From assembly GCF_000189635.1 (NCBI RefSeq), contig NW_002476336.1, forward strand, positions 372,001-436,000: a stretch of DNA of 64,000 nt, in the 5' to 3' direction. This stretch comes from Tetrahymena thermophila SB210 (lineage: Eukaryota > Ciliophora > Oligohymenophorea > Hymenostomatida > Tetrahymenidae). Under the pieces are notes generated by a model that had not been told where the DNA came from, made no database searches, and was given only the letters and a program-made list of their open reading frames with translations. Shown piece after piece: positions 18,359 through 54,807 of the stretch. Each line of letters starts with the position of its first letter. Within the stretch, counting starts at the first letter, position 1. Made by a program: the position numbers and the translations under genes.

Positions 18359-19969
18359 TCAAATTAATTTAGGGCGGATGAATTTTTTTCTCTTAGTGCG
18401 GATTAAAGAAAATTAACGTCTCTTACAAATTTCAAAGAACTCGAGCTAGTTGTCAGTATCTTTTATACGAGCCTCTTTCATCCACCAAGAGGGATCAGTT
18501 TAAAGGAATTCAGAAAAGTAAACAGAATAAGGTGAATCAGAGAAGAGCTTCAAAATAAATTCGTTATTTAAAGAAAATGAGTCAAAATATTTTTTGAAAT
18601 CAGAAATGAATTCAAGGTTAGATCCATAATTTTTAATAATTACCCTTCTGAATCCTTTTAGAAGGTTTTTGGTGTAGTTACTATCATTTTAGTACTCTTT
18701 TTTTTGCTTATTTTACTCATCGTCATCATCAAAAGCAACTTGAGCTAAGTATTTTTAATTCATTTCATTTATTTTGAAAATTGTTTAGTTTGAGTTTAAA
18801 GATATTTAGGAAGTTTATGATTGTGGTTTTTATATTTATAAGGATGTGCATAAGGTGGAGGAAATTAAGTTATTTGATTATTATTGTTATTTTTACATGT
18901 CTAGATCGTCGACTTTTTATTCAGATGTATTCAAAAAATATAGTTTCTTTTTGTTAGTAATAACATCTTTACTTTACTTTTAGATACCCTTTTTCAACAA
19001 AGCGTACTAGGCTTACTTTTTCTCAGGGTTTATGATATCTTGAACCTAAGGAGTACTGGCTTGAGTTTATAGTGGACTGACTTCCTTGGCTTCAACTTTA
19101 ATTTATGCATAGAAAGACTGAGTTGAATTACTAGATGCTTTTTCAGCCTAGGAGTTCATCATGTGATTAATATTTTATTAAAGGGTTATTTTGGAATTAG
19201 ACTCTTCTTTACTACAATCTGTATCATTTTCTTGCTCGTCATAGCTTTCTTACTAAAAACCATTAAGTCCTTCAAAGCATTTATTATTAATTTCGTTTGA
19301 AATGGTTGTTCTTTATGATTTAGAGGTAATCGAGTCTCTAAATTTATTTAGATTTTTATCAAATTAAATAACAAGAGTATCCTGATGTCTATTAATTTCA
19401 GACTATTTATCTAATTAACTCTTGTTGTTTTATTATTAATGGGTTATAGATTAATTAGAATGAAATTCCTTTAATGATTATTGTGAGATTTATGTACTTG
19501 ATAAATTAAATAATTTTTCTTTTTCAGCTATCGATTCTTAGTTGCTCTCCAAACAATTTTTATCTGTGAGAGAATTTCTGCAACACATGCAAATGTTATC
19601 CTAAATAAGAGAAATTATTTCTTCAGAAGAAATTTATAAAATTTAGCTCATTAAATTTATTTTTTGTTGTAAATTATTAATAAGTTAGGCTTTTTTTAAT
19701 TGCTATTACTATTTTTATTCATTTTGTTCTAAGATATGAGAAAAATACTATTACTAAAATCCTTATTGTTATTATTAAGAATTGTTTGGAATGCTATTTA
19801 AATTTTAAGGCATGATAATTTGTTATTGAAAGCTTGACTGCATGTTAGGGACCATCAAGTTGTAGTAAAGAGGAATTTATTAATAGTTAATCTAAGGATT
19901 TATTAATTAGTTTGTTGAAAATGTTGGCTCTGGTGCTCTGGACACAGAAGGAAAGGATAAGGCGTTCAT
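18359..19969 (-). CDS. Member 1 of a four-gene paralogous family (SNYTKN/WW C-terminal domain), function unknown
   Basis: A single exon of 536 codons ending in TGA. The start MNALSFPSVSRAP is the first ATG. Residues 1 to about 410 are low-complexity, rich in Gln, Asn and Ser, with a short Cys cluster (NICMCCRNSL). An acidic patch (DDDDE) followed by Lys leads into the conserved domain at about 425-525: NDSNYTKNLLKGFRR (from about 428), LNNEFILKLFSDSPY, FLQTDPSWWMKEARI with the Trp pair at 495-496, then RTKRKKFIRPK. The same domain ends the genes at 22639, 33799 and 38394. The basic, aromatic C-terminus and disordered N-terminus would suit a chromatin or transcription factor. This is inference; I do not recognise the domain. 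Confidence 0.82.
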
Positions 19970-22638
19970 TTAAGTGAGCAAAGAAAAATTATTTTGAAAT
20001 TAAAAACTAAAAGTTTTAGTATTGATTTGTGATTATTTGTTTGATTATCAAACTTTTAGTAAGAGACTTGAAGAATCTATGAGAAGATTAATTTTTTGAA
20101 TTGCTTTTTATCTTTTTAAATTTTTGATATTTAGTTTATGAAAATTAAGTATAAAAAATAATTTATATCTGGAGTGATAAAAATAATATTTAGAAGCTAG
20201 CTAGCTAGTTTATATTGCAACCGTTTTGTTTACATTCTAAGCTCCCCAGCTTTAAAAACAAGAAGAAGATAGCATTTTAGAAAGTTTTTCCTTGTTGTCG
20301 ATTGTTACATCCCGAAAAATTAATTTTTAAGATAGCACCAAAAAGACAGGTGGAAAATATATCAAAAAGTTTAATTACTTATTAACTATTTAATGAATTC
20401 TGGCAAAATAATTTAAATTAGAAAGTACTCGACCTTTTCTATAAGAATTTATTAAAATCAATTATTATGCTTACTAATATATATATAGTTTTTGGAATAA
20501 CCTTGATTATGTATACAATAATCGAGCGAAACTCAAGCTATTAATCATAAATCTATAATCTAAGAAGTATTAAAATTCACCTAAAAATACAGTATTAAGC
20601 TTCTAAGTAAAGTGTAACAACAGTCTTCAATTTAATGAAAGCTTAAATCAATAATCATTTGGGTTTTATAAAATATACTCAAAGTTGAAAAACTAAATAC
20701 CAATTTTTGGAAAAGAATTAATATAATTATATGACTTACATAAAAATTTTACAATCTTTTGTAAATTAAAAAAATTTTTAAACTTATTAAAGTTCTTAAC
20801 TAGAAATGTAGAAATTATTTAACAATAAACTCAAGAATATATTTTATTTTTTACAAAAAATCTCTAATACTCATATAAATTTTCTTGAAAAGTATTTTAG
20901 TGCAGATAATAAAAGTTTGTTAACTTTTTTTAAAAATATTTATTGGAAAGTTTCCATTTTTTAAAGCAAAAATAAAAACGCACAGGTTTTCAAACAATTT
21001 ATTAATCAAATTATAAAAATTACAGTGAAACTTTAATTACTCTGAAATCTAAAAATAAGAAGGAAGTATATTTTTATCATTAATTTAGATTATATACTTT
21101 GTTTAACTGCTTTTTTTTTTTATTTACAGCAAAATGTGTTCATTTAACTGTATATCAATCAAAAACATTATATAATACTCTATTTTATCTAAAGCCAATA
21201 ATATTTTAAAATTGGTTAAAATTTAAAGCTATTATTTTTATTATTGAAAAAATGACCCTTAAAAACACATCTTAAATTTACAATGTTTTATATTTATTTA
21301 TTTATTTGGACAAATACACTGTTTTTGTAATAATTTTATTAATCTATAGATTACACCAACATTTGCAACCTTATCAATAAAATTTGTAACCAGAAACTTT
21401 TTAAATAAGTTTTTATCTTTTAACTGTATGAAAATTATTTAAATAATAAGGAAAGTTTCTAGCAAAAATAGATTGAGTTATATAAATATAGTATATTATG
21501 GTCAATTATTGATAAAAACAAATATAAAAAATTTGAATTAATATTTATAAGTTAGATTTATCATACTATTAAAAATTTCTGAAAAGAATATAATTAATTA
21601 TAAATTATTTTATATTTGTTTAAATAGTGACAATGAGAGTATTATTTTTTTCTCTGAAATTCAGGACAGTAAAATTAAAAGTGAAATTTAATAAAAAAAA
21701 GATCATTTATTCACAAAAAAAGGGCACTTAAATAGTTAAATTTTAAGCAAATAATTCAAAAACTCTTAGAGGCCATTAAAAATTTGGTTAAATAATTATT
21801 TTTATTGTGAAAAAACTCTCTTTATAATATTTAAGTTAAATATTTTTCGAGTATCATTTGATAAAACATCAAGTATCATTTAAAATTTTAGTAAAGATAA
21901 ACTTTATTAGATTTTTTTTATAGTTAATTGTTTAAAAATTTTAGTTTCTAATATTAAATTTAATAATAGCTTCATAAGCTGTGAAGTAAATATTATTGAT
22001 TCCTTTTGTACAATATTTCAGTTTTATTGTTTTATTGATAATGAAGAGTCTTCATAACTATTGGAGGTTCTAATAACAAATATAATTAATAAATTATTCT
22101 TTGAAAACATAAATAATCATTTTTGTGAAAAAAAAGAAGCTTTTAAAAATATGATAGTAAATAATATATTCTGATAAATTTTATAAAGCCAGCTTTTTAA
22201 ATTAGATCTACTAGCCTAATAATTATTCCTATACAAGAACAAGCTCTTACAAAAAAGGATAAATTTATATCTTCCATTATGAATGATATCAATTAAAAAA
22301 CAAATTTATCTGATATGTATTCAAGCTGTTCTAAAAATATCATTTCTTTATATCAATTAAATAAAAAGGTTATAAAAATTAATGATACAATTAATAATAA
22401 ATAAATAAATAAAGCTTTACTTTTTCTTTTAAACTTTTTAATATATATCATACATTATATAAAAATATTTTATATGCTTTCATCAAAACTTTCATAAAAA
22501 AAAGGGGTATTTATTTTTATTTTTTTAAATGACTTGGGTTTTATTAGTAAACAATATTGAATAGTTATTTAAATTAAATACTTTAAAAAGTAAATAAATA
22601 AATTATCATTTATATTTTCAATTAATAATTGATTTGTA
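19970..22638. other. AT-rich spacer between paralogues 1 and 2
   Basis: 2.7 kb with no coding frame. A slightly more complex patch lies at about 20195-20320, beginning with a GCTAGCTAGCTAG palindrome and followed by CTCCCCAGC. It may be part of the 5' region of paralogue 1. The rest is A/T-rich with no recognised element. Confidence 0.55.
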
Positions 22639-24489
22639 TCACATAAAATATATTTAAGGTCTTTCGAAGCTTTTACGCTTAGTTTTTATATGGTTTATCT
22701 TCTTTTATTTACATAGATTGAAAAAATTAATTTATTTTTCAACATCTTTGATTTTTGCTTCTTAGATCCACCAGTGAGGTGGCTGAGATAAGAATTTATT
22801 AAAATAGCTTGAATACTCATTGTCACTAAAGAGTTTTAAAATAAACTCATTATTAAGTTAATTATTTGTGAAATATATTTAAAATTGCTAAAAAATGAGT
22901 TGGTCTGCGGTAAAGCGCTTCATGTAACGACGGAACCCCTTAAGGAGGTTCTTTGTGTAATTTGAATCATTGTAGTAATCCTATTTGCTTTTCTTTATTT
23001 TATCTTTAGGCCTCACTGAACAGATGATAATTACCTCGGACTATTTATTAATCTTTATCATATCTTTTTTATCATCTGGTGATGAATCAGATAAAAATCT
23101 AATTTTACAGTACTTTTTAGTTAGTTGTGGTTCTTAAGAGCTTGAATATTACTTTTACTGCTCAGAGTCGGTTTCAGTAAATTCATTCATTCTACAAGTA
23201 AAGTCAAGTTTACAGTCCGCGCTGGCGCTGGGTGTATTAACTATATTTTAAGCATTTTCACTATTGTTGCTAATTTGGTGGTTATTTAATTAACTTTAAA
23301 ATTTACAAGAAAAATTTTAACTTTGTACTGAAAAGTTATTTATAGATTCGAGCTGGCTATTTTGATTTTCTTATTCTTCGAGTTTTGCTTAAAAAATAGA
23401 TGGCTAAGAATTGATTAAATCTAATTTGTCCTTCGAGCTAGTTTAGTTATCACTATGGATATCTTAAAAATGTTTTTGGATTCTCTTTTTGTTTGCTTTG
23501 CCATTCTTACGATTATCCTGTTTTCCTTTTAAATAGCTATTATCTTGCTATATTTGAGTCATAAATTATGATTCTATGCAATTTTAATTGATGGGTAATT
23601 CAAATTCATTCTTTGTTTAAAACAAGTTGTCTTTCTTTGATTAACTATTATTTTTAGTTGAATTTAAATTTTCAAACTACACCTACTGCTTTTAATTCTT
23701 ACTATTTTGTATCTATTTCCTTTTAATTGTATTGGTATTTTATTATGACTTTTATTAATTTTTTATTTAATTATCATATTCGTTATTTATACTAATCTCT
23801 CTGTTATTTTAAATATAATTAGTTTGTTCATTTTCTTCTGAATTATACTCTTGCTTTTATGTTTAAAACGATGAGCAATTTCCTTTTTATTTAAATTTTT
23901 TTTCAGAATTACAAGTAATTTCATTATCAGGTTTGCTAATTTTTATAGATTTTTAAGATGGTGATTGGCAAGTAATATCTCCAATCTAGCTTTCAGATAT
24001 CAAGCAACTATGGTTATTACTATATTTTACCTATTCGCTTGAATGAGAAAACTTTTTTTTCCTTGATACGCTGTTTTCAGATTGATGCTCTGTTTGAGCT
24101 GGTTATTTTCTTGATTTCATTTAAAATGCTTCATATTAATAAGAAGAATCAGGTTATAAATTTTACTTGAAGGAACCAAATCTATAATTTTATTATTGAT
24201 ATGTAATAGGAAGTTCTTAGTTTTACTAGTTATCCAATTCAATGTTGCTATATATTACTTGTTGGGGAATTGGCTAGTAATTTTACTATGAAAAAATAGG
24301 ATGGTATTAAAGCTTATTTAAAGCTTGAATGTTGATTTAATTTGCTTAAGAGCAAATGTTATTCGGCATTGCTGATTAGAAGCTATTTTGTGGAGTTATT
24401 AGCTTCGAATTATTATTTATATAAAAACACATATTCTAATTTGGGTAAGGTAAGGACATAAGAGATTGCATTTAGTAGGGGTGGTTCAT
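22639..24489 (-). CDS. Member 2 of the four-gene paralogous family (SNYTKN/WW C-terminal domain)
   Basis: A single exon, 616 residues, TGA stop. The start MNHPYQMQSLMSLPYPNQ follows an A/C-rich leader and resembles the proline/glutamine-rich starts of its relatives. Residues 1 to about 500 are Gln/Asn/Ser/Lys-rich, including basic runs such as RKKKKFS. The C-terminal domain (about 510-605) carries NDSNYTKNLLKGFRRYMKRF, LNNEFILKLFSDNEY and PPHWWIQEAKIKD, with the Trp pair at 573-574, then IKTKRKSFERP. Order and spacing match the other three members. It lies 2.7 kb upstream of paralogue 1 in the same orientation, with no gene between, consistent with tandem duplication. Function is unknown. Confidence 0.82.
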
Positions 24490-26756
24490 AGGAATTTTTG
24501 AGGTTTGTTTTCTAATATAAGTTAACTTTAGATAGATTAAAATATTTATTTTTAATTATATTTAATAACCCTTTTGGAATTGTTAAATATACTTACTTAG
24601 TTTTCTATATTTTATTATGAACAAGAAATTTTATTTTACTTTAATGATTATATCAACAATCAATTAAATTAAACAAGTTTTAATCTTTTTCCTTTTTACT
24701 TCTATTTGATTAATCAAACAAACAACCTTTTCTGCAATAACAATATATATAACTAAATATTAATCAATAAAAGGAAACTAGAGTACAAATATGAAAAAAT
24801 TTTTAAAATATACTTCAAATTTACTTTTATTGCAAACATTAATCGCTTTTTTGGCAGTTTAAGTTAAATAAAATCACTCTAAATCCTTCAAAAATCCTTC
24901 TCTCTTCATTGATTTTTGAATTATTATTGGCTTTAATAACTTAAAAAATGTTTGGTTCATTGAACCATATATAACTTTCCTACCCAAATCTATATATCAT
25001 TTACAACCTACTTCTTTATACTTAAATATTCAAAATTTTGTTTGTCTCTTTACCCACTTCAGACTTAGTTAAAAAGAGTACAATAACTAATTATTAAGCT
25101 AGATTTTTCATCATATAATAAACATAAGACTCTATAAATTCCTTAAGTATAAACAGTATGAAATTATTGTAAGATTAATTTATAAACAATACAGATCTAA
25201 CAAGTAAAAATATGAATTAATTTTATTGTTTAGTTTCTTTTTTGCTTGTACTTAAAGTAAATTATATTAAATTCGTAAATGATTTATACTTTGAATTAGT
25301 TTGAGTAAAATTAAGAGAGTGACTGATTGATTGATATATTAAATTATAAAAAATTTGTTAGTTCCTCAAGGAATACTAGATAAAACCTTCTTTTTTACCA
25401 CTCTATTCCTATAGAACTTACAATAAACTAAATTCTATATTACACATATAATTTCTTATAGAGAGAAAAATTTACTTTTCTGCTCGATCTTTTTCATGAT
25501 AAAATTTTTATAGAACTAAAAATTAATAATTTCTACATTGTATTACTTCAGTCAAGAGATTAAAATTCAAAGATAAATTATATATAATTAATTTTTAATA
25601 ACCAGCGTTATAATTTATGAGCCATCTCGTCTATAGAAACAGATATTTTTTTTGGCAAATTAAGAAATTAAGTGTATTTATTTATCATCATTTAAAATAA
25701 ATAAATATAGTAACTCCCTTTTAAATTACAAAAACTTTAAGCTATTTTAAATATATGTTGTCTTTCTATATTAAATTTGTAAGCCTTATCAATGTTTACT
25801 TTTTTTAATTTAAAAAATTTAATGTAAGATAAGTTATTATGTGTTAACAACATTAATGTATTTTTATATGTTATCTGATTAAAATATAAGGTTTTATTTT
25901 TAAATAAAATTCAAAGAAAAAATATGAAATAAGATGGATATCTTATTATGACAATTAGTTAGTTATTCAATTTTTTTATAGGTTTCTAGAAATAACTTTC
26001 AAAACAAGAGAAGGAATTTATTTACATTATTTTAAACTTAAAAAAATGCATTATTAAAAATACAAAATATTGTAAATTTTTATTAGATTAAAAAATTACA
26101 AAAGAACTTTAATTTCACAATAGTCTAGTCAGCCTCAAGCAGCAATTTTAACTCAAGTAAGTCTTTATTAGGGAGTTAGATTGAAGTAAAATTAATATAA
26201 TTGCAACGTAAGAAATTTTCTGATTGTAAAGGAAAAGAGTATTAATTTTATAGTTGTGTAAAAATAAATTATCTATTCGCATTTCTTAATTGCAAAATTG
26301 GGGGTATTTTTCTTTTAAATCAATGTAAAAGTAAAAATAAACGAAATATGAGTGTAATTTAATAAACTAATCACAAATAAATAGTGACTTCGAAAAATTG
26401 ATTTGTAAATTATCTCTGCCTTTGAAATTTTAATTAATAGAACAAAATTTTTTCATAAAATTCTGTTTTCAGACAAGTAAAAATTATCCTTTCTTTATAC
26501 TTCTCATCATTATACTGATAAAAACTAAAAAAATCTTCTATAATCTAAAATAATAGTATTTAATCAAAATTTACTTCAAAAAAGATTGTTTACAATTTTT
26601 TCTATTATTTTTACATTTCTTTGCTTCCTTTATCTATGAGAATTAATTAGCTGTAATTATTTAAAAAATAAAATATTTAATCATCTTAGATACAAAAAGT
26701 ATTTTAGTATTAGCAAAGATAAAACCTAATTTATAAGCTTTATAAAAAATTAAGTG

Positions 26757-26777
26757 ATATATATATATATATATAGA
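26757..26777. repeat. (AT)n dinucleotide run
   Basis: An uninterrupted TA/AT dinucleotide run of about 20 bases inside the gene desert. It is a simple-sequence repeat with no other feature attached. Confidence 0.85.
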
Positions 26778-28350
26778 TTTTTTACCTTCTAGTAAATTAC
26801 ATATTGATTTATTATTATGTATTTACTATTAACTGTATAAAAATAATAGATTACTTATTTCCAAATTAGTTTACAGTTGATTATGTAATACTCTTCACAC
26901 ATGAAAGGAATTTATCTCATATTTAATATAATCATAAATAGAATTCAATAGAAAGTAATGTAAATGAACTATTTCAGTTTACAAAATTTAGAATATATAT
27001 TCATTTTTAAAATAAATATCAAATTAAATGCGCAATAATAATTCTGTTCATTATCAGCTGGTATATTTGAGTACTAAAATAAAAATTTTCATACAAGTGC
27101 TTATTAACATAAAATAATTTAGTCTTAGAATATAATAATATGAATATTTATAAAAATTAATTTATTTATATCTTTCATACAAGTTTTAAGAAATTTTGTT
27201 ATGCTTCCACTTGATTTTTGATACAGCTGATAAATTGTTTATAAATGTAATTTAATTAAGAGAAAAAAAGATTTTTTTATTTCAAGTCATTGCTATTAAG
27301 AAAACTTAAGTTTGGTTCATATCACATAACAGCTGGCTCATTTTTATCTAAATAAGAAGCAAAACCATTAACTAATTAAAATAGATGAAGAAAAATAATA
27401 GAGAAGTTTAAAGTTCTATTTACATTTTTAAAAAATATGTACTAATCTAATCTTAAAGAGTTTCAATTTCTTATTAAAAAAAAATGTTTTAAACATATTT
27501 TAAATTATCTATTAGAATTTATATTTGTTTGGATTTTGAATTAAGCATTATCATATTATTTTAATTATTACAAAAAATATAGATAAAAACTAAAAATATT
27601 TGAAATAGCACTTCTTCAAATTAAAAATATTTTTTAACGAGTATATACTGCTTTTTTTATTTTATTTTCCATTTTAATACATCAGAATTTATAAGACCTT
27701 CATAATTTTTTAATATTTAGCTACCAAAGTTTTTTCTAGTCATGGTATTAGGTATTTCCTTCAGACTTACTTACACTTTTACTCAAATTGAGAAATGAGA
27801 GAAAGATAGAAGGAAAACGTCAATTTTTGATTTTTATCATATGAAATTCACATCCTTCTATTTTATAGAAGAAGAATCTAGGAATATTTTAAAATTCAAT
27901 TATTTATCTCAAAATAAAATTAATTCCTTTCAATGAAAAAAAGTTGAAGTATGTATTAATAAACTGGTTATTTCTGATTTAATCTAAATGAATATTGATT
28001 ATAAAAAAAATTATATTAAATGCAAAAATTGGTTCGTGGAAGTGTTAAGTTTATTCTAAAATTATAAATACTTCAATATAAATCAGTAATTTTGTTTTTG
28101 ATAAATAGATTATAAAGGAAGGAATAGAATTTTCATCTATCTATTTAGATAAATACATGTATTTAAATTAGAGTTTTATTTTATCAAGTGTGTTAAATTC
28201 AAATTTATATTAATTTGAGTAATTATTTTACTAAAATATACAAATTAAGAACTTATTAAATTAAGAAAAATTTCCATTTATTTAAAATTATAAATGATAT
28301 TTAGCAAATAAAATTAGATCTTAAATATAATTTTCCAAAAGGAATTTATT

Positions 28351-28505
28351 AAAAAATTAGAAGTATTTTTAAAATTTTTTTTTACTTTTTATTTAAATAA
28401 GAAAAAATAAATAACTTAAAATAAATTTATAACAAAAAATTAGATGTATTTTTAAATTTTTTGTTACTTTTTACTTAAATAAGAAAAAATAAATAACTTA
28501 AAATT
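28351..28505. repeat. Tandem duplication, unit about 83 bp
   Basis: Two adjacent copies of AAAAAATTAGAAGTATTTTT / AAAAAATTAGATGTATTTTT (starting near 28351 and 28434). Each is followed by TACTTTTTA[TC]TTAAATAAG and AAAAAATAAATAACTTAAAA. The copies are nearly identical apart from a few substitutions and a T-run length difference, so this duplication is younger than the one at 4217-5120. Confidence 0.82.
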
Positions 28506-31500
28506 ATTATCAAGCTATTTATATTTTTTTAGTTTTAATTTCTAGCTCAAACTTTATAACTTTTGATCTTTAAATTACTACATATTTTAATCTCATATTT
28601 TATAATTTCAACATGTTTTATTCTAATTTTTGTGATTCCAAATTCTTTATTCAAAATACTTTTAGTGAATAAATAAATTATTATTTCTTATTTAATATTG
28701 ATAAATATAAATAAAAAAGAAAAATTGTATTATTATTTATTTAATTTTTAAATTTCGATTTTGGAGCTGTAATAACATATCAAGATTTGCTTTGATTAAA
28801 TTTTCATTTATTAACCTTTACTTAATTTATCTAATAAAGCTATATTGTTGAAATCGTAAATAGAAAAAATTATTTGTTTTTGGCAAATCTAAAAATAATA
28901 TGGTGAAAAATGTTTAATTATATTGAAGAAGTCATAATCTTTATTAAAATTAATAATTTATTATAACTAACTTGATAAATAAAGAAGCTATTTTCTAAAA
29001 TAATAACTTAACTTAAAAATAAATTAAACAACTCAAAATCTATTGAAATATATATTGTAAATCCACAATAAGTTTTGTGACCGAGTTCGAGAGGTGGGTC
29101 AAAAAACTCACTTTTCAAAATGAAAACAAAAAATTCAAAAAATTCAAATTCTTATTTGACCTTAATCAATAAGGATCTAGGTTAATAGAGAATATTAAAT
29201 TAAATAAATTGTCTTTTAAAAAGTATAAACTGATAATAAATAAACATATCAATTTTTAGAAAAAAAATTTTAATTTAAGTAATTTAATTAAATTTTTAAA
29301 GCAAGTAACTAAAGCCAAATAAAAAATATTTTAATTAGATTTTGAAAATTTTTAATTAGTAGTATGAAAAAGATAAAAATTTTAAAGATCATATAAAAAA
29401 TGATTAAGTGAAATAAAAAGTAGAGATCTATTATTTTAAAAGCTAAAAATTAACTCAAGTTTAAGGAAAAGATAAAATTAAATATTAAATAACATCAAAT
29501 ATAACCTTTCTTAAATTTATTTTGATACTTTAATACATTTTTTAATAATGAATTAAAATATATAATATTTCCATCATAATTAAAAATTTCAAAAGTAAAT
29601 TAACTAATAAAAATTATTATTACTAAATCTTAAATCAAATTAGTTTTTTTAATTTTAATACTTCTTCTTTCTTAATATTATTACTCAATAAAACAAGAGC
29701 TTTTTAGAGTAAATAAAATGTTTAAATATATTCTATTTCCTTATTTAAAACTTTAAAATATGCTAATAATTATTAAAAAAAGTTTATGATCAAATATATA
29801 TTTTTTGCTTTATAAACTCAATTAAAAGTATATATTAGAAAAATAAGTTAAATTTAACAATCCAAATTTAATCTATTATTTTGTTTAAATAAAGATTAAA
29901 TTATTAATTAAACGATAAATAATATATGGAAGTACAAATATTAAGTCATTTAAATTTGCTTAAAAAAATTTATAAAAAGGCAAAGATTTTAATTTATTTT
30001 TTGATAATAATTATTTTGATAAGAGTATTAATTTTTAATCAACTAATTGAATTAGAAATTAAAATAAATCTGAAAAAAAGTTAAAATGTATTTTTGCTAT
30101 TTTTAAAGATTAATTTTTAAAATAGAAGCAATAAATTAATTTATGATAAAAATATTTATAATATGTTGAGTTTTTGTTAAAGTTTGATTCAATATAATTT
30201 TTTAAAAATATAAAAATAGTTAATTCTAATTTAAACAAACAAACAAACTTAAAAATTATTAATTTTAGACATTTTAATAAATAAAAATATCTATTAAAAT
30301 AAATACTTTCTTTTGTTTCTATAATTATTTAAAATTTGTATAACTTTTCAAATAAGAAGACATATTTTTTAAGAAAAAGACTATTTTGAACCTGAAAATG
30401 TTTTGTTCTTTTTATTCTTCAAATTTTTAATTTAAAAATAGATTAAAATATATGAAATAATTTTTAATCTTAAATAACAATATATTTAAAAAATTAAAAA
30501 TAAAATGAATAAATATATTTAACTAAAGTTTATTTGTTACTTTAAAATATGATAAATAGTTTTGATAAAGCTTATAATAAAAGTTAATAAAGATTTATAT
30601 GTATGAGCAAAATTGCAAGAATCAAACTCTGTCATTCCCTCTTTTTAAGTATTAAAAATTGAAATATTGAGAAAAAATAAATATCTTTAATACCCCTTTG
30701 TTTGAATTACTTTTATATATTATAAATAGTCAAAGTTTTACACTTATACAAACAAAATGATACTCATTCAAAAAAATTAAATTGAAAATCCCCCAACCAT
30801 AAATAAATACCTTCCTTAATTTTTTCTGATTGTTTTTACAATAAAAAAAGGATTTTTGATAAGGAAATTGCAAAGTTTCTTCTAGTATTAGCAAATAAAG
30901 ATTTTATAAATTAATACTAAAAATAATTTTTTGCATTTTTACTAACTAGATAAAAGTTAACTATTCTTTAAAAATGGTAATTTATTCTTATATTTAGATT
31001 TTATTTTTAAAAAAAGTTCTAAGCTTGATGTAATAAATTCATGGATATAAATTAAATCAATTAAACTTTTTAGAATTCTTATTTATTATCAAAAATCGAT
31101 AGAATCCAAATTCCAAAAAAATAGTATTCTGCATTAATAAGTTTCTAATTTTCTAGAAATTAAAAATTTCTCTCAATCTATCTTTCTTAATTGAAGATTT
31201 CTTTTTATAAAGATTTAGATTTTACTTTTAAATAAATTTATAGAAGAGTTTCTAAACTAATTTTTGTTTACTTGCAATTCAAATATTTTTATTACAATTA
31301 TTTTTTTAGTTCATGAGATAGATAGATACAAACTTTTGATAATCGATACCTTTTGTAAAAAGATAAGCAATAATTACATATTAAAAATAAAGCACATTTA
31401 GAACATATAAAATATACAACTATTATATGAATTGACGTAAGAAGAATGAATGAATAAAAATATACTTTTCTAATGTATGGTTTGGAGGAAATTATGAAAG

Positions 31501-33798
31501 TTTTTACTTTGGTAATATTAATTTCAAATAGTGTAAATAAAAAAAGTAAAGCCCATCAAATTTTCCTAACAAAAAATATTAACAAAGTTTATTAATCCTT
31601 TTCAAGTTTATTTGAGTTTACAATTTCCAATATAACTAAATCTTATATAGTAATTAATAGAACTATAAAAAGAATGTTAAGCTGTGTGTATTACCATTAT
31701 TCAAAGCATTTAAATAAAATGCTTCAAACCACATAAATCAATAAAATAAATATATAAATAATTTGAATTTTTATCATTTCGAAGGATAAAATGACCATAA
31801 AAAACTAAAAATTTTGAGTTTTAACTCAAATGAATTTTATTTTTATATTAACTTAAAACTGTTAATTTTATCTGAATCTTTTTATAGCTTAAAGTATTAG
31901 CTTCATTAAGAATTCATTTAATATTTCTATTTATAACAAACAAAGAAGAATAAAATTTTATCATTTTTATAATGAAAATAATTTCTTTATTGAATATCAA
32001 TAGATAATTTTAGGAATTAGTTAACCATTAAATTTTATTTTCACAACCTTATTTAAATATAAGTAGTCTTAAAAATTATTTTGGCCAATTTAATTTAATA
32101 TTCCAAAGAAAAATATGAAGAATAGGTAATTACTCTCTTCAATTATTTTATATATTTGATTTTGAATAGAATTATTATTAATTTTTTTAGGTTACTTCAA
32201 AAAAAAAATTAAATATCAAAAAACCAATTTCCAATTAAAAACTATATCAAAAAAGCAAATTAAATTAAAACATAGAAATTTAAAATCGAAGAGTATGTAT
32301 AAATCTTAATCAATCAAAGTATTCTAAATTAGTTTGTGAATTAATTAAAGAGATAAGAATATTTAATTTATTTGAACTTATCAAAATATTTTTGGTGCAA
32401 TATTTAGAAGATACAAAAACATTATTCTTGTTTTTGTTAAAAACAAAGTAAAGATTAAAAATCTTTCTTTTAATTTATTAAAAATACATTTATTATAATA
32501 TATTCAAAAAAAACTATATTTTGTATCTTAAGATAACAAAATTGATTTTTAAAATTTTGAGTAAAGTACTCAGTTTTTGCGATTTTTCTTATAAAACATA
32601 TGAAAAGAATTAGTTTATTGATTTACTTCTTCTAATGAGTGAATGAATATTTATTAAAATAAATGATAAAAATATGCAAGAAAATATTCTAATTTTGAAT
32701 TATGTAATGAAGAAAGTATAAGTTGAGCTAAAAATTAAATTTTTTGATTTCTTTTGATAACAAAAAAGATCAAAAAGTTTTGCTTCATTTTAATAGGAAA
32801 AAAAGTAATTTATTTTAAAAAAACTACTATTTGTAAGCTAATCTAATTAAATGATAAATAATATATTTTCATTTTATATATTAATTCTGGCTTAAAATTG
32901 CAAATTTAAATTTGAAATTGGAGGAATATGTCAGAAAATTTTAATTCTATTTCATATCTTTTTTGTGTTGAATTCAGGTCAAAAAAGTTAACTTTTAAAG
33001 ATTTAATATTAATTTTTATATTTTGTATTTAAAATCTTGGGGTAGGAATGAAAACTATATTTTTAAAAGAAAAGACAAATTTTTTTCATTCATAAGATAT
33101 TGAATCTAATTTTTAGCCAGAATTGAGAAAAAAAAAATTTAAATAAATCTTTATCCGAAATGGTTAGATTGTTTGCTTTTTACCCAAAAAAAAATACTTT
33201 ATGAACTTAAAATAACGCGTTTTTATGTTTTTTATCATTTGTTATTTGTAAATTTAGTAAAAATAGTTCTGCGATATATTTTCTCTTTTTTTTAGAACAA
33301 ATATTATTTATTATTTGTTCTAAATATAAGCATTTATTTGAAAATAAATTTAACTGTTGACAGATGGTAATAAAGAGAAAATAAATTTACAAAAGGTTCT
33401 ATAAAATAATTAATGAATCTTAACCAATATAAAAATGTTAAGCATTTACTATTACTAAGAATTAATGGCTAATATGCTGAAAGAATTAGCAAATATTTAT
33501 GATTAGTTTGTTACTGATTATGTAAAATGAAATTTTTAGAAGATTTTTTAATTTGTTATAAAAGTATAAACAATATAAATTTATACATTATTGGAAGGAA
33601 GTAATATAATTAAATTTATTAAATAGTTGTTTTCTAAATTTTATATATAATAGGAGTGAAGTTAGTAAGATAATGAGCGAGTTATAGTGTGGATAAGATT
33701 ATTAATTAATTTAATTTTTTTAAATTTGTGGGGAGAGTTTTTTATAATTTTTTTTCAAAATTATCTTTCTATTTTCTTTATTTTCAACACTATCTATT

Positions 33799-35244
33799 TC
33801 ATTAAGCAGTAGTTGTGTTATCAGCCTCAGCCTCAGCTTCAGCTTAGGCTACTACAGTCTAAGTATTTGTGTTTTATTATTCGTTTTATACAATATTTTC
33901 TGTTTATTAGTTTTATTCTTCAGAAGGAGAGCTGCTAGTAGGAGCATTGACTGTATTAGTTTGCTTTCCTTTTCTCTTTGTTCTAATGTCAGCATAATTT
34001 TTATTTTTCACAGTCTCAAAGAACTTTAATTAACGGGTTGGCTCTTTGATTTTAGCTTCTTTAATCCACCATTAAGGATCAGTTTATAAAAAGTCCTCAA
34101 ATTCAGATTAGTAGGGAGAGTTTTCAAGAAGAGTTAAAATGAATTCGTTGCTAAGTGTGTTATTGTAAAAATATTGTTAAAATTTTTCAATAGTATCTTT
34201 GTTGTCCTTATATTTCTTATTCATGTGACGACGGAAACCTTTAAGAAGATTTTTTGTGTAATTACTATCGTTTTAGATTTCTTTCTTGCATCTCTTGTCG
34301 GAATTTTGATTGTCTGAGCTGTTTTAATCTTACAAGTGGTCTTCTTGGATAGTAATTAATTCATTTTTAGCTTCCTTTTTGACCATCAATATATTATTTT
34401 TCATGTGATTTTGCTAATAAACTGAGTTGCTATAATTTTATTCCATTCCGAAGTTATTAATGGAGGGTTAGTTATTTCTGATTGATTGAGTGGAAGAGCA
34501 ATCAGAAATGTTTGAAGGAATACATTTTTAAGCAAATGACTATTATCCATACATTAAGTTCATATTTGGATAGCCACTTAGTTTTTAATGGAGCATGCTT
34601 TATTCAAGTAAAGTTGTAGTGGATTTAAGGTCTTCAGTACATAACTTTTTATGAACAAAGTTTTCATGAGATGGAGAGTCACTTTGATCTTCGATCTTAG
34701 AATATTAGTAATTAATATCATAAGCCCTCTTTCTGTTAAGAGGCATTTAACTTGCATGGTCACCCATATACATGCTCAAGGGCTATTGTTGCAAATTGTA
34801 ATTTTTCAAATTTGTAGGAATATCTTAATTTAAATGTAAAGGTACTCTGCTGAGTTCATTATTTTCAATAACTGGTAGACCCTTGCGTTAATTATAACCA
34901 TTTTATATATTTAAATTTTAGTGACCATATGGAGGAATAATACCATTGATAGCAGCACCTTGATGATAAGGTTGCATAGGAATGGATGGAGTATTTAATT
35001 ATGAGATAAATTATTATTAGCGTAATTTAATCTATAATTAAAGTTATTAAAGTTACTAAATTTCTTGTTAAATTTACTATTCGGCCTCAATAAATTAATT
35101 GTGAATTTAAATATGGGGAGGTGCTTGAGGAGCGAACATTTACTTAGCATACATCAAAGAGTTTTAAGATGGCTAAGGTTATTAGAAAGGAGGTATTTAA
35201 GAAACCATATGTGGTGGAATTTAGTGGTTAATTTAAGTAAACAT
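33799..35244 (-). CDS. Member 3 of the four-gene paralogous family (SNYTKN/WW C-terminal domain)
   Basis: A single exon, 481 residues, TGA stop: the shortest of the four. The start MFTQINHQIPPHMVSQIPPF is Pro/Gln-rich, and the first 310 residues are Gln/Asn/Pro/Ser-rich. The conserved domain (about 325-425) reads NDSNYTKNLLKGFRRHMNKK, LSNEFILTLLENSPY and FLQTDPQWWIKEAKIKEP, with the Trp pair at 392-393, then IRTKRKGKQ. It is followed by a tail of about 50 residues ending in Ala/Glu/Asp repeats (AQAEAEAEADN). Paralogues 1 and 2 have only short basic tails, so the tail is variable. It lies 9.3 kb from paralogue 2 on the same strand. Function is unknown. Confidence 0.82.
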
Positions 35245-38200
35245 TTTTAGTTTGTTACTTCTTTCTTTGAGGATTATGGAATAGTTTGTTTTTGTTTTTT
35301 TGATATAAACTTTTCTTTTTTCTTTTATCTTTATTATTTTTTTTTGTTTTTTATTTATTCTTATTTAATTAGGTCTTCTCATATGAGCTAAATAAATTAT
35401 TCAAACACCGGATTCATTCTATTTTTTTTTTAATAATTTAAATTACATATCTGCCCATTTTAGGGGTAGTCTCAAAATCTTAATTAATACCAATTATCCA
35501 AGCTGATTTTTTATAATCAACTTAACCTGAAATTTAATCTTTCTATTATTTTCTTTTTCAGAAATACTCTATCAAGCAACTATAAACTTACACTTTAAAC
35601 ATTATAAAAACAAATATGAGGCAATTTTATTTCTGTTTAGTTTTAGCTTAATACTAGCTTAGCTAACAATTATAGTGCACTAACTAATAAATATACTTTA
35701 CACATATTATCTGGAAATTTTTTTTATTTCACTATTAAAATTCAAGTCAAGATATTTGATAATTGTAAGAAGCAAAACTAATCCTATATATAATCAATAA
35801 TTTATTTAAAAAATTTATTATCAAGTTTGTAGACCAGCTATCAAATAAATTAAATTAGCTCAATTATCTTTTGCTTTTATTTTAAACATATGAATCATAA
35901 GCAAAATTTTATGTTACTTCTCTTATGAAATAAAATATTATTTATTACATTTATCAAAATTCTGGCTATTAATAATGCTTCTTTTTTGTAAAAATACTTC
36001 TTACACCTCAAATTTACCTGATTTAATTGTCCAAAAAAATACACTCAATAACTCTCTGACAAATTAATTTAGAATTCTCTCCAGCTTTAAAGCTTGTGTA
36101 TTATTTTTAAAAAGATGCTTGTCAGTTTTCTTCGATATCTGCAAAGAAATACCATGAAAAAAATGGTAAGAATTATGAAGTTGTAAGGATTCACAAAAAA
36201 ACAAAAATACAGAAAAAAATGAACAATATATCCTTTAAATAAAATAATCCCATAAAATAAGCTAATTTATCCAATGATGGAATATAAAATAAATGTTTAA
36301 ATTATGATATCAAATTGAATTTAGCAGTGGCTTACGTTCGGGGAAAAGATTACAGTAATTAATATCTAAAAGAGGTAAATTCTTTTTCACAAAACAGAGT
36401 AATACTCAAATTTAAGATTTAATTATAAATTTTTGTCCAGAATTATTAAATTATCTTGAGTTCATATACCTTGCCTGGCTTCTATTTTTTCTTATTACAA
36501 ATTTTGATAATTAAAGTGAAGAATTAAATTTGGAGATTTCTACTCATATGATTTAATTATATCATCATACTATTTCATCACAGTTATAATTTAATCTTAT
36601 TCCTTTTTTTTGTAAGCTACAAACATCTCTGCCCTGCGCTTTAATTTGCAAAAGTCACAATACAAATGATAATTAGCTTACAAATTGCAAAAAAATGGTA
36701 AAGAGTGAGATGTAATCATAAGTAACAATTAAAAATAAGAAAAAGGAGTTTTTTTTAATAATTTTTGATATTTTAGTAATCATGTTAAAACATAAAGATC
36801 ATGTCTACTTTTTGCTTTGGAAAAAGTTTGCAGTAAAATCGCCTTTATATGCTCATTTAAAATCAATATACTTTTTTAAATCGACTGGCATCATAAATTA
36901 TTAGTTGTCAATTTCTTAGATAGGTTTAGCTCAAAATTATAAAATAATTAATTATAATTCAAAGATTGGGTATATTTTCCTCTTTTTCCCCATTAGTTGA
37001 ATTGATAAAAGTTCATTTCTAACACTTAATAATTGAAATTTACAAGTTGATCTATTCCAAGAGAGTTTTTTTTGATATATTTGAAGTGGGATTAATACTT
37101 ATAATTTTATAACAACAATTTATTACAACTTTCTTTAAAAAAAACCCCGGATCATAAGAAACAGAAGTTTTGTAAGGTGACTTTATAAGTTTATTTGAAA
37201 ACATATTTTTCTAATTTTTTATTAATTTTTTTTCGTTTTTTTATCAATTTTAAAAAATATTGATAGTTAGTTAGCTTGTTAGTTAATAGTCAGATAGATA
37301 GCTTCGATCTATTCAAAAATCTTCTATTGGAAAATAAACAATTTTCTCTTTTTATAAATTTTAAAGCAAACATAAGTTTTTGAATAAAAAAATTACATTA
37401 ATTAAAGAAGTTTTTAGCTAGGTTTTCGAAATAACTCCATATAGAATTTCTTAGTGTTTAAATAAAAACAAGCAATTATATAATTTTAAAACTGCTTATT
37501 GATTTCTATGAAATATTTAATGTCTTTATTTTAAATATAAAAGTCATTTTTCATCAAGAAATAATTGAAATATTTATTAAATATGAATTGTAAAAAAAAT
37601 AAAATAATATCAAGATCTCTATTTTACTTTAAACTTTAATCATTAAATAAACAGCAAACTCTAAGAGAATAATAAATGCTAATTTATTAAAAAAGTATGA
37701 ATTTGATTTAATGTATAATACTATTTTTTTGTTTGGAATTTTAAACGAAAGTATAGATTATATTTTCTCTAACAGAGAGAGAAAAAGAAGAAGATTACAA
37801 ATATAAATATATATTGATATCTTAATACATGATCAAAATATTTTTGAAATTTTTTGAGTTTCAAGCTTATTAATTTGTATTTAATTTTCAATTTTCCCCC
37901 TTAAACTTTCTATATTTTTTAAGAATTAAATTATTAGGTAAATAAATTAAATAAATTTATTTGCTTACATAAATTTGAAAGAAATGCTTTCTTTTTACTA
38001 TTTCAGATATTCTACACAAGTCAATAAAAACCTTTTTTTGTAGTCCTATAGAAATGAATAGTAAATTACATGACTTTTAGGAGAAATATAATATTTAAAT
38101 TTTTTATTAATTGGATGGATCTAATAATCCTATTGAAAGTCTATGACGTGATTGAAAATAAATAATATAGAAAGTTTGAAATTAAATAAATACTTAATAT

Positions 38201-38393
38201 ATTACAAATATATTATTAAAATTGAGGTGATTTATTTAAATAATATATAATAATTTGAATTTAAATGAGTAGGGTGAGCTATTTCTAAATTTTGAGTAAA
38301 TTACAATTACAAATAAAAATAAATCAAATGTAAATACTTGTTTATATAAATATAAATTATTCTACTTTCATACTGAGTTTAAAAATGATATTT
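35245..38393. other. AT-rich spacer between paralogues 3 and 4
   Basis: 3.1 kb without an acceptable coding frame. Small patches of higher complexity occur near 36325-36352 (TGGCTTACGTTCGGGGAAAAG), 36460-36485, 36605-36640 and 37140-37180. None forms a protein frame or an RNA I recognise. Confidence 0.5.
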
Positions 38394-40790
38394 TCAAATT
38401 TATTCAGTCATTTCAACTTGAACTAAATCTGAATTTTTATCAGAATTTTATTCTTGTTAACCATTTAGGTCTTGAATGTTGAGGGTAACTTCGGAGTTTA
38501 TTACATCATTTTCTTCTTAGAATTATTAATCTTCGCAAGTTTATTTTTCCTTTCCACCAGATTTTTCTAATTTTCCAATAATCTTTTGGTTAAAGTTTTT
38601 TCTTTTTGTTTTTATTAAAGATATGTCTTGCTTTTAGTATAGGCTGAATATTTAACGTTAACGCTCTTTATTAGTAATTTTAGCCTCGTCCATCCACCAT
38701 TCAGGGTCTTCCTAGAGGAAATCTTTGAAGTAGTTTGCATATGGAGATACAGTGAGTAATTTCAGAATAAATTCATTATTTAAGGAGTTGATACTGTAGT
38801 ATTTTTCAAAGTTGTTCATAAGTTTCTTGTTATTGTAGAAATTTTTGATGAAAAATCTTCTAAATCCCTTTAGAATATTTTTGGTGTAGTTGCTTTCGTT
38901 TTACATGTCTTTTTTCTTTTACATCATCTCTTCGTATTTTTATTACTCTAGTTCTTATTCAAAAGTTATATTTTATTAGTTGCTGTTTTCCTCATGAGAA
39001 GTTTAGGCTTTATCAGTTTGATCTTCGCTTTAAGTTTTATGTTTATCAGGCTATTCCTATTGTCCGTTTCTCTTGGCAAAAGCGCTTCTTATTCCTGAAT
39101 TTTATTTATCTGATTTTTGCTTTTTAAAAGTAGAGAGATAGTATTCTTTTTGGGATCTGCGTTTCTTAGATTTATTTTTACTTTTTTGGAGTGTATTGTT
39201 GCTGATTTCTGAGTTTTTTGATTGGCAAAGGGATTACTTTTCATGAGAAGCTTCTTCCTGCTCTTATCCAAGAAGACTTGCATCTTCATTCTAGTAATTC
39301 TTATTTGAAAGATTAGTTGATTACTCTTGAATTGTTTAAGAGTTAAGTTCTTCTTTCTAATCAAATGATTTTTCGTTTGTCAGAAAATCATTTTTTTAGA
39401 TGGTATTTTCACTTGTTAAATCTTTTTACAATTCCTTTTCTTCTATTTTGCAATTTTGTAGAATTTAAGCATTTTCAGAATTTAATTAATTTTCTTTTGT
39501 GGTTTCATTTTCTCTAGAAACACGAGGATTAGATTGGTTTAAAATGTAGGCTTGTGATTAATCGATTTCCTTCTTTGTATTTATTAATTAATCGTTTGGT
39601 TACTATTTCAAGATTTTTAAAATTTCATCTTTTTAAATTTCTTGTTAGTTGTAAAATGAAACTTAGTGGAATGGTAAACAGTGAGAAGATTAATTTTATT
39701 GAGTAATTTAATTTACTTCTTGCTTGACGATAGGAGTAGATTAAATAGGTGATGTGTTTATCTAAGAATTTTCAAGTTTAACAAAATCAAATTAGTTAGG
39801 TAAGTATTAGTATTTTTAAATATTCTCAGCAAGCTGAATTTTCAAGAGAGCACTGTTTAAGTTGTTATTGTTTTTGTTACTATTATTTAAGTTCTTTAAT
39901 ATATTTAAATTATCTTATTCTTATTATATTTATTTTTATAATTATAAAATATTTTATAAATAATTTTATTAAGTAATATTGTTATGATTGTTAATAAATA
40001 GATTGTTAGAGGTATTTAAGGGAGGTAATTAATTATTAAAGTTTTAATTGAATTATTGTTACATGTTTTATAATAAGTAGCTTTATTAGTTGATATTTAT
40101 ATTCTTTGATAAGTCGTTTGATTAGTTTAATTAGTTATTAAAGATAGATTATTATGGTAGAGGATTTGATAAAGGAGCTTACTAAATTTAGTGTTGATTG
40201 AGAGAGTATTATTTTTATTGTAAAACTTTGCTTTAATTTTAATATTCTCGATTTAAATCAATAAATTATTAATGATTATAATTTTAATTATGAAAATTGT
40301 TACTATTTTAATTTTGTAAATTAAATTAAAGGTTTTGTTATTAAAGCAACTACTTTTACTATTAGGTTAATTAGCTTAAGAGACTGAGTTGATTTTCGCT
40401 CATTTAATTGTTATTATTTTACATCATATAGTTCATACTTCCCATTCTATTATTTGGGACAAAAGTTTATTATTGCATGTTGCTCTCTAGACTTTGTTTA
40501 TTTAAGAAACTTTGTAAATTTAAATTTTCAGATAGAGGTGCATCTTTCATGAGGTTTAAATTTTATATAATTTTGCCATTAGATTATACAAAATTTTAAA
40601 ATGATTAATTTTTATTATCTTCAAGGCTGAGAAGCTATTAATTATAGAAACCACCAAATCTATTTTAGATAAATTAATTGTTTTACTAGTCTCCAGAGGC
40701 CAATTTCTAAGTTTAAATGTTTTACAAGCGAAGGTCTGGTATTCTATTCATAGGAGAAGGCTAAAAGTATTAGTTGAAAGTTGTATCCAT
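38394..40790 (-). CDS. Member 4 of the four-gene paralogous family (SNYTKN/WW C-terminal domain)
   Basis: One open frame of 798 residues ending in TGA, the longest member. An in-frame TGA at 40962-40964 bounds the frame, and the ATG at 40788-40790 (MDTTFNQYFQPSPMNRIPD) is the first good start. The N-terminal 600 residues are Gln/Asn/Ser-rich with long Asn/Gln runs around 39850-40300. Acidic/Lys patches and a basic stretch (KSKNKSKKRRSQKE) precede the domain (about 630-730): NESNYTKNILKGFRRFFIKN, LNNEFILKLLTVSPY and FLQEDPEWWMDEAKI, with the Trp pair at 698-699, then IKTKRKNFNQK. A Gln/Glu-rich tail of about 70 residues follows. Domain divergence and the added tail suggest an older split. An upstream 5' exon cannot be excluded. 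Confidence 0.8.
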
Positions 40791-46110: not shown

Positions 46111-47056
46111 TCAATCATCATTTTCATCATCTTACTATTATCTCTTTTTCTTAGGATATTCTGGAGAACTTGAATTACTTCTTTCTTTCTATTGTATTAT
46201 GATAAAATGATATTAATTAATTTACAATTAAAATATTTATAAATATACTTGTTCATTTCTAAATTAGTTGTAGCTCTTTTTATATCTATTTTAACTATTT
46301 TCATCAAAGTTATGATTGCCCTAATTATTATTAAACCTTCCCTTATAACCTTCTCTTTATCCTTAATTATAGTTGTTGCCCCCTCTAAAGCCACCTCTAC
46401 TATTAGACCTTTCTTAAAATTGCTATTGTTAACGCTCCTTCCATTACTAATGAATATTATGACGTCCAGAGTCATTTTATTATCTGTATTAATCTCTTTT
46501 TTGATATCCATCCATACCTCTTCCAAACTATCTTCCTTCTTTAAAACCATAATCCCAATCTACTCTAATCACTCTATCATTTAGTCTAAGTTTTAATAAA
46601 TTAAAATTTTTCTTAGTAACTAGTTAGATTTTTTTAAATGATAAAATTTAATAACCAACTTTGTCTATGAAATATATTCAACTGCTATTCTAGCTTCTTC
46701 GTGAGTGTGGTAACTTTTTTTAAATAACGAAATTTATATATTTATAGCTATTATATATTTTTACACATTTATTTAAACAAAATTATAAATTTTTCAAAAA
46801 ATAACTTAAATTACACAACAAAACAGAATCCTGCTGATTAACCTTCTTTATTAATACCCATTATAAGATCTTTAATTTATCCTGCACGAGAGAATAATTC
46901 ATAAAGTGCGCTCTCTCTTGTTTGGAAATGTAAATTTCCTACATATACAGTTGTAGTAGTTTCAAGTCTTTTTTTATAATCCTATTCGCTAAGTTCTGAT
47001 TTTTTATCATAATACAAACTCTAAGGTTAAAGACTATCATACAAAAAGGATGCCAT
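46111..47056 (-). CDS. CBP20: Nuclear cap-binding protein subunit 2 (CBP20)
   Basis: Four exons in phase: 47056-46815, 46713-46660, 46585-46249, 46188-46111 (236 residues, TGA stop). The family-specific pattern is unmistakable. An RNA-recognition motif spans about 35-110, with RNP2 VYVGNL (37-42) and RNP1 SAGFCFVV (74-81). It is followed by VIRVDWDYGFKEGRQFGRG (104-122), the C-terminal cap-pocket segment typical of CBP20. Tyr38 and Tyr15 or Tyr16 sit where the two tyrosines that stack on the m7G cap are expected. With CBP80 the protein binds the 5' cap of nuclear RNA-polymerase-II transcripts and aids splicing, export and decay. The tail (about 125-236) is longer than in animals and rich in Arg, Gly, Gln and Asn with an acidic end (DDENDD). 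The intron at 46659-46586 starts at GTTGGT; only this choice gives TKLNDRVIR. Confidence 0.96.
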
Positions 47057-48413
47057 TTCTAAATTATCTATAAATCACTATTATTCTATTTAAAATATCT
47101 TTTTTAACTACTAAAATTTGAATAAAAGATACTAAAATTTTTGTCTAGATATTATATATTTATATGTAATATCAAAGGTTAATTACTTAAGTATATTGAT
47201 TTGATATTTATATCATAATATTAATTAACTTTTTGATTTTAAAATTTTTGCGCTTTAATTTATAAAAAGCTGATCTTATTTAATTAGACTCAAAATAAGT
47301 GAACTTTAATTATTCTATTTGCTTAAAAAACATTTTAATTAACTCAAACTGAGTAAATTTTAATTATCCTTTTTGCATTTAAAAATCTTAAGAAGAATGA
47401 TTCGACTTAATAGTAGATAAATTAAAGTTTTAAAATATTAGTAAATAAGTTGATTATTAACAATAATTATGTTAATTTTCATTTACTTTAAAGATTAGTT
47501 ATTTGAAACAAAAAACTAATAAACATTTTATTTAATTTTATAAATAGTAAATTAACTTACGAAATATAACAATAATTCATTAATTAATCAATTATAATCT
47601 TTAATTATAATGATACTAATTGATAATTTTAGGAAAGAAATAGACCAATTTATAAAATTTAATAAATTATAAATATTTGAGTTATCAATTTTCTTCTTAT
47701 AAGTAAATCTATATCTTAAAAAATGAAAAAGAATAAGTAGTATATAAAAAATAATAATTTTATTTACAGTTTATTTAAAAAAATTATTGCTTTATTTTTA
47801 AAAATAAACATTTTATTTAAAAGATTAAATAATAAATAAACTTAATTAAGAAAAATTAAAATTCATCTATTAATTTATTAATTATGATATTTAGTTGATA
47901 TAAAATTAATTCAATATTAATAAAATAATAAACAGAAAGTAATAAATCTATTTACATGCTTAAATATAATACAAATATTTTAGTTTTTTATATCATTTTT
48001 ATAAATAAATGTTAATGAATTCATTTTTATATTTAATTGATATTTATTTTATCTAATTTTTATAAATATATGATAGATCTATTTATTTATTTATTTTAAA
48101 ATTTACAAAAGTATGAGGTACCGATTGACTTCTGGTCATTTAAAAAATTTTAAAGGAAAATAATTTCAAAAAAGAAATAATATTTTATTTATTATATCAT
48201 GAAAATAAATGAATAAAAATCTATCGATAGTATAATTTTGCTTTAAGTAGTATTTATTATTTAAGAAATATTAAATGTTAATGTTTTACAAAATTAACAA
48301 ATTTTAAAATGAATTTTATGAGTTAAAATTCAATTTTACAGTTTTATAATAGAGCATTGTATAAAAAGATAAAAAATCTAAAATAAAAAAACAAATAAAA
48401 CAGTTTATTACTA
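47057..48413. other. AT-rich gene-free stretch
   Basis: It holds the 5' flank of CBP20 and the 3' flank of the small secreted-protein gene. No coding frame was seen. A loose repetition of an ACTCAAA..TGA.TTTAATTAT..T..TTGC motif occurs near 47288-47380. Confidence 0.55.
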
Positions 48414-53748: not shown

Positions 53749-54807
53749 TCAAAATTCAGGTTCTTCTTCATTATTGTAAGTTGTATCTTCATTTCTACTT
53801 TTATTTTTATAGTCTTTTTTACCCTTTTTATCTTCTTCGAAATCATCTTATTTTGCTTTTAAAGAATTAACTGGGTTCTTTGGACAGTTGGCTTGAGTAT
53901 GATGAACATCACCACAAATAAAGCAACCACCACCTTTGTAATAAAGACCTTTATCATTTTCAGGACAATCTCTACTAATATGACCTTATTTCTAACAAAC
54001 AAAGCAAAAAGCGAATTTGAGAGCGCCAGTTTTCTTCTTTTTACAATCCTTAAGAGTGTGCTCATTTGAACCACAGTTATAGCATATATTTTACTTGGCC
54101 TTGCTACTTTTAGCATTAGGACAATCAGCAACTAAATGACCAACTTCTCTACATCCTAAACATTACAAGTTAACTATCTAACGTCTCTCTTTTCTCTTAT
54201 CACTTTTCTTTTTGTTTTATTCTTTTTTCTTCTTTTCAATCTTTTTTTAAATTCTCTTTTTCATATCTTGCTTTTTTTTCTTTGCTTCTTCAAAAGGATT
54301 GCGAACATATTTTTCAGGGTTTTAAAGTGCTAAAGAGATCTATTTTAATTCATAAAAGATTCTTTTTCTTTTGTTTTTATTCTCACCACCTGTTAATTGT
54401 TTTAATCTTTCTTATAAATTCATTTCTTTTTCTTTAAGTTAATCAATTGTCAAGAAAAACACTTTGTGTTTATTGCCAGATTTTTCTTCATTTTCGTCAT
54501 CTTAATCATTGCTATCATCATTTTTTTATTTATTATCGCCATTTTTTAAATCATCAACTTCCTCTTCTTGAGAATTATTTTCTTCTTGATCGATTTCATC
54601 TTATTCTTAAGAGTCTACATCTTAATCTATTTCTTCGATATCTTACTATTCTTCTTCTACTTTTTATTTAGCCTCCTTCTTTTGTTTCTTCTCCAACTTG
54701 GATTTTTTTTAAGTTAAATGTTCTGGCTTAGCAGTTTTGCCTTCAGACAACTTTTCTGCTTTAACCTTTGATTTAGGAATAGATTTTGCTTTTTCTGTTG
54801 TTACCAT
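53749..54807 (-). CDS. ZCCHC9-like protein with four CCHC zinc knuckles
   Basis: A single exon, 352 residues, TGA stop. The first 110 residues are Lys/Glu/Asp/Gln-rich and disordered. About 115-180 is helical (KVFFLTIDQLKEKE, then FYELKQISLALQNPEKYVRN). About 180-210 is a very basic Lys/Arg block. Four C-x2-C-x4-H-x4-C knuckles follow at about 216-308: CLGCREVGHLVADC, CYNCGSNEHTLKDC, CFVCQKQGHISRDC, CFICGDVHHTQANC. The third and fourth are separated by PENDKGLYYKGGG, as in eukaryotic ZCCHC9 proteins. The family binds single-stranded RNA or DNA and is linked to nucleolar rRNA processing; that role is inferred from the family. The acidic N-terminus and basic block suit a nucleolar protein. The start ATG is the first after a non-coding A/T leader. 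Confidence 0.9.

Follow-up and report, generated by a model that had tools for sequence, protein, structure and literature searches.

Four tandem genes of Tetrahymena thermophila encode a compact form of the DUF4441 domain

Four single-frame genes with a common C-terminal domain

We analysed a stretch of 64,000 nucleotides, hereafter the window, from the ciliate Tetrahymena thermophila SB210 (assembly GCF_000189635.1, contig NW_002476336.1, positions 372,001 to 436,000 of the forward strand). It holds four paralogous genes, numbered 1 to 4, which lie in tandem on the minus strand. Translated under NCBI code 6, with TAA and TAG read as glutamine, each consists of a single frame with the coordinates given by a preliminary description of this DNA (Table 1); gene starts are likely ATG codons picked by eye. 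The genes contain no internal TGA and 60, 61, 55 and 106 in-frame TAA or TAG codons, respectively. Under code 11, no open reading frame of at least 150 amino acids overlaps the region from 16 to 44 kb.

The C-terminal parts of all four proteins have in common a domain of about 100 residues, with pairwise identities of 48–54% over the six pairs and 40 invariant columns in an alignment of 111. The domain described previously is thus real, and only its last motif needs correction, to I-[RK]-TKRK instead of [IR]-x-TKRK. Its net charge is +7 to +10 over 105 residues, largely due to lysine in a lysine-rich setting. N-terminal to it stands a Gln/Asn-rich arm (Gln 15–19%, Asn 10–16%), so the picture of a basic domain joined to a Gln-rich arm is borne out. 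The arms are barely more alike than shuffled sequence, with little likeness beyond composition: out of 100 shuffles for each of the six pairs, 1, 14, 2, 3, 15 and 4 score at least as high as the real arms, in agreement with the earlier view that the low-complexity N-terminal halves are unrelated. The domain is followed by 8–10 residues in genes 1 and 2, and by a second low-complexity tail of 56–67 residues in genes 3 and 4.

The domain is a member of DUF4441

The domain was previously called unrecognised, but a profile search places it in a known Pfam family, DUF4441 (PF14536). Searched alone with short flanks, all four window domains exceed the curated Pfam cut-off of 24 bits (Table 1). Because all four pass once the arms are removed, we assign the window domain to DUF4441, a membership established computationally. 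Among the full-length frames, only gene 1 lies above the cut-off (30.5 bits); gene 3 reaches 8.1 bits, and genes 2 and 4 do not appear among the PF14536 matches. The likeliest cause of these misses is the Gln/Asn-rich arm together with the composition correction of HMMER. Full-length searches thus miss the domain and domain-only searches recover it.

A profile of our own, built from 30 DUF4441 loci on other contigs, ranks genes 1–4 at the top of the 1183 window frames (E-values 1.4e-7 to 3.9e-5; 0.012 for the fifth frame), and hhalign relates the four window domains to 25 of the 30 loci with a probability of 96.8 (E-value 2.5e-10 over 83 columns); the loci behind both comparisons were themselves chosen with Pfam's PF14536 model. 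With regard to the earlier suggestion of a lineage-specific family, pattern scans of the viral and prokaryotic collections found no relative.

No paper of the literature that we searched names DUF4441 or PF14536. The finding therefore shifts from an unknown domain to a catalogued one without described function in that literature. As a discovery this is ordinary: the window genes are further members of a large catalogued family, without described function, in a model organism.

Table 1 Features of the four-gene array in the window
Feature	Position	Strand	Basis
Gene 1, 536 aa (amino acids), single frame, code 6	18359..19969	-	Frame and codon listing
Compact DUF4441 domain, gene 1 (NDSNYTKN...TKRK)	18386..18688	-	PF14536 38.6 bits, E 1.3e-9
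SUMO-acceptor-like IKVE, disordered arm of gene 1	19091..19102	-	Sequence; enrichment is family-level, not site-level
Gene 2, 616 aa, single frame, code 6; without SUMO-acceptor-like motif	22639..24489	-	Frame listing
Compact DUF4441 domain, gene 2	22672..22971	-	PF14536 40.6 bits, E 3.2e-10
Gene 3, 481 aa, single frame, code 6	33799..35244	-	Frame listing
Compact DUF4441 domain, gene 3, AlphaFold2-modelled	33970..34272	-	PF14536 38.2 bits, E 1.8e-9
SUMO-acceptor-like VKKE, arm of gene 3	34372..34383	-	Sequence
Gene 4, 798 aa, single frame, code 6	38394..40790	-	Frame listing
Compact DUF4441 domain, gene 4	38598..38900	-	PF14536 34.0 bits, E 3.7e-8
Two SUMO-acceptor-like motifs, arm of gene 4	39717..39782 (VKQE 39717-39728, VKLE 39771-39782)	-	Sequence

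A compact subfamily within a large family

A PF14536 search of the T. thermophila genome (101 Mb, 445 contigs) listed 150 scored places of 176 candidates, all 150 over the cut-off. The four window copies and five further compact members are not among them; these nine domains all pass the cut-off when given alone, so the family counts at least 159 members. Among the 150 places listed, 104 fall into 23 clusters of neighbours within 25 kb, strand ignored, and 46 are single. The big clusters hold 13, 12, 10, 8, 6 and 6 of these places, on contigs C91, C115, C114, C187, C381 and C262, respectively; those of C187 and C381 lie near a contig end.

We built a tree of 81 distinct domains, taken from 90 hits in 85 loci plus the window with duplicates merged. 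The four window domains form one clade (support 99/94) and, joined by L036, L038, L037, L040 and L039 from other loci, a clade of nine (98/97). Some forks inside the latter are weak (91/34 for L036 with the window four), and the branch of L039 is long. In all nine members, 34–35 residues separate helix 1 from the NN motif, in contrast to 45–79 in all 72 others, which include an odd second frame (L006b); the compact clade lacks at least 10 residues of this segment, whose full length is usual in the family but does not define it. Since its members nevertheless reach the family score and match the rest of the domain, we take the shorter spacing as a subfamily mark: judged by sequence, the window four and five dispersed paralogues make up a compact DUF4441 subfamily.

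The window domains keep the Lys-Asn pair of helix 1, the NN motif, the tryptophan and the basic end of the family. The lysine of the pair is present in 78 of the 81 domains, and a basic cluster closes the domain in 56 of 80 family members. Besides their spacing, they differ from the usual DUF4441 in the position after the Trp helix: 62 of the 72 long-spacing domains have histidine there, and six of the nine compact members (the window four, L036 and L038) have glutamine.

Age and layout of the array

The family was initially thought to be young. In the six pairs of window domains, the proportion of synonymous differences (pS) is 0.69–0.92; the synonymous substitution rate (dS) is beyond correction in five pairs and 1.84 in the sixth, and the nonsynonymous rate (dN) is 0.38–0.50. 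With synonymous sites close to or beyond saturation and the domain nonetheless conserved, the window duplications appear old, and dN set against pS argues that purifying selection acts on the domain. Far closer, near-identical copies occur in other DUF4441 arrays (L006/L010 and L017/L023 in the tree). Such arrays look young; that of the window does not.

A codon-usage scan with a cut at 22 bits, in which short exons can be missed, scored no segment at 20.4–22.6, 24.6–33.7 and 35.3–38.4 kb, in line with the proposal that no other gene, at least no confident one, separates the four. One weak segment (35.7 bits) at 19827–20354 overlaps gene 1 at its start. The scan shows no coding signal in the roughly 9 kb (24600–33700) that separate genes 2 and 3; we judge this gap long because the mean intergenic region of T. 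thermophila is given as 1 kb (PMC4780704). Between genes 3 and 4, positions 36001–37000 have a GC fraction of 0.24–0.25, near the coding level, yet no segment was scored there.

Predicted fold

The AlphaFold2 model of the gene 3 domain has a predicted local distance difference test score (pLDDT) of 86.3 and a predicted template modelling score of 0.79, with ten-residue pLDDT means of 92–96 over residues 21–100. The fold class is thus confidently predicted as helical. Among 43 Foldseek chains re-examined, neither a helix-turn-helix nor a high mobility group (HMG) match was found. Only the Rubisco assembly chaperone RbcX was listed, with 6–15% identity and a Z-score within the chance range for helical bundles, and we do not claim kinship. 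The domain matched no other Pfam family of note.

A DUF4441 protein assigned to mitochondrial complex IV

One family member outside the window, L067 (contig C127, match 231283–231627), encodes a 172-residue "Uncharacterized protein" that is chain U5 of PDB entry 7W5Z. All 115 compared residues are identical, and the phmmer alignment covers 1–172. Two later papers on this complex describe the entry as the T. thermophila complex IV dimer (PMC10060162, PMC10227065). Chain U5 was the only match below an E-value of 0.18 in a search of the PDB, and just one entry in the copy searched contains its sequence. Although encoded in the same genome as the window genes, U5 differs from their products: it belongs to the long-spacing group, is short, lacks a long Gln/Asn-rich arm and is assigned to mitochondrial complex IV. 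By eye, its N-terminus is unlike a mitochondrial presequence. Chain U5 is either a mitochondrial DUF4441 member or a doubtful chain assignment; we flag it as the sole solved structure that represents the family, or else as an assignment worth re-checking.

SUMO-acceptor motifs and possible function

The acceptor consensus of the small ubiquitin-like modifier (SUMO) is [VIL]-K-x-E, and in well-studied eukaryotes SUMO targets are mostly nuclear. We counted this motif in the flanks of DUF4441 domains, up to 200 residues before and up to 150 after. In 80 family proteins it occurs 30 times against 14.2 expected (z-score 4.3), and six control motifs stay between -0.9 and 1.1. In 45 proteins with less than 50% domain identity, and after exclusion of the 12 residues next to the domain on its N-terminal side, we found 20 occurrences against 6.6 expected, a count reached by none of 1000 shuffles; five control motifs gave z-scores of -0.3 to 1.4. 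Other genes of the window, sampled in 20 coding segments (5790 residues), showed no excess, with 7 against 8.5 expected. SUMOylated proteins are stated to accumulate in conjugating T. thermophila, and SUMO proteomics of such cells is deposited as MassIVE MSV000092977 (PMC10830130).

In view of the threefold enrichment of SUMO-acceptor motifs in the family flanks, not shared by neighbouring genes, and of the basic domain with its frequent basic end, we tentatively favour the view that the window genes encode nuclear, SUMO-regulated chromatin or transcription adaptors. The preliminary description had thought of transcription or chromatin factors; the motif enrichment lends this idea, still hypothetical, some support. 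In each protein, a long Gln/Asn-rich arm precedes the domain of about 100 residues, which is predicted to be helical and ends in the basic TKRK. The folded DUF4441 domain would serve as a docking surface and the disordered arm would carry SUMO-acceptor lysines; tandem duplicates may have diversified by change of the arm, with selection maintained on the docking domain. Extended to the whole family, DUF4441 could rank with the largest families of nuclear regulators yet to be described in ciliates, with more than 150 T. thermophila genes in which a small helical domain that docks to chromatin or DNA is paired with fast-evolving disordered arms switched by SUMO, the window array being a compact, ancient subfamily; this wider proposal is somewhat doubtful.

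Several points weigh against nuclear adaptors. No known DNA-binding fold appeared among the 43 chains re-examined, and the basic cluster is missing in 24 of the 80 family members. Flank starts were guessed, so that part of the flanks may be untranslated; the control genes were not matched to them in composition. The motif is present in the sampled flank of only 22 of 80 members, and the window four alone show a weak excess (4 against 1.5, reached by 54 of 1000 shuffles), with none in gene 2. The placement of U5 in mitochondrial complex IV speaks, if correct, against an exclusively nuclear family. A rival reading, which we consider rather unlikely, is that DUF4441 serves as a general helical module for protein-protein interaction in several compartments, mitochondrial complex IV included, in which case a nuclear location would not be required of the window genes.

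Direct binding of DNA by the domain, which would make the family a large group of transcription factors in ciliates, would agree with its positive charge, the TKRK end, the Gln/Asn-rich arm, the many paralogues and the nearly invariant lysine of helix 1; the charge is, however, mostly lysine in lysine-rich surroundings, no known DNA-binding fold was matched among the 43 chains re-examined, and no other Pfam family of note was matched either. We regard this option as improbable. A DNA-binding family of T. thermophila invites comparison, by description only: the Lia3/Ltl1 proteins, which bind the boundaries of internal eliminated sequences, have a common region of about 100 residues, as DUF4441 proteins do, and comprise Lia3 and three paralogues with a central region (PMC4780704, PMC6698652), in contrast to at least 150 DUF4441 places. 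An array left behind as a by-product of tandem duplication, decaying or neutral and without distinct function, would suit arms stripped of nearly all former similarity and the long silent gap between genes 2 and 3. This reading is hardly credible with four frames of 481–798 residues still open and the invariant columns of the domain maintained despite near-saturated synonymous sites. The nuclear adaptor proposal is useful as a lead, and the remaining interest lies in the size of the family and in the SUMO motifs.

Other window proteins

Elsewhere in the window, all on the minus strand, we noted a protein with VWA, Vwaint and Vint (Hint-type, intein-like) domains at 2119–4152 (Pfam Vint 163.6 bits, Vwaint 87.1 bits), a fragment of an RNA recognition motif (RRM) protein at 46826–47059, and, at 53755–54813, a protein that carries two CCHC zinc-knuckle stretches.
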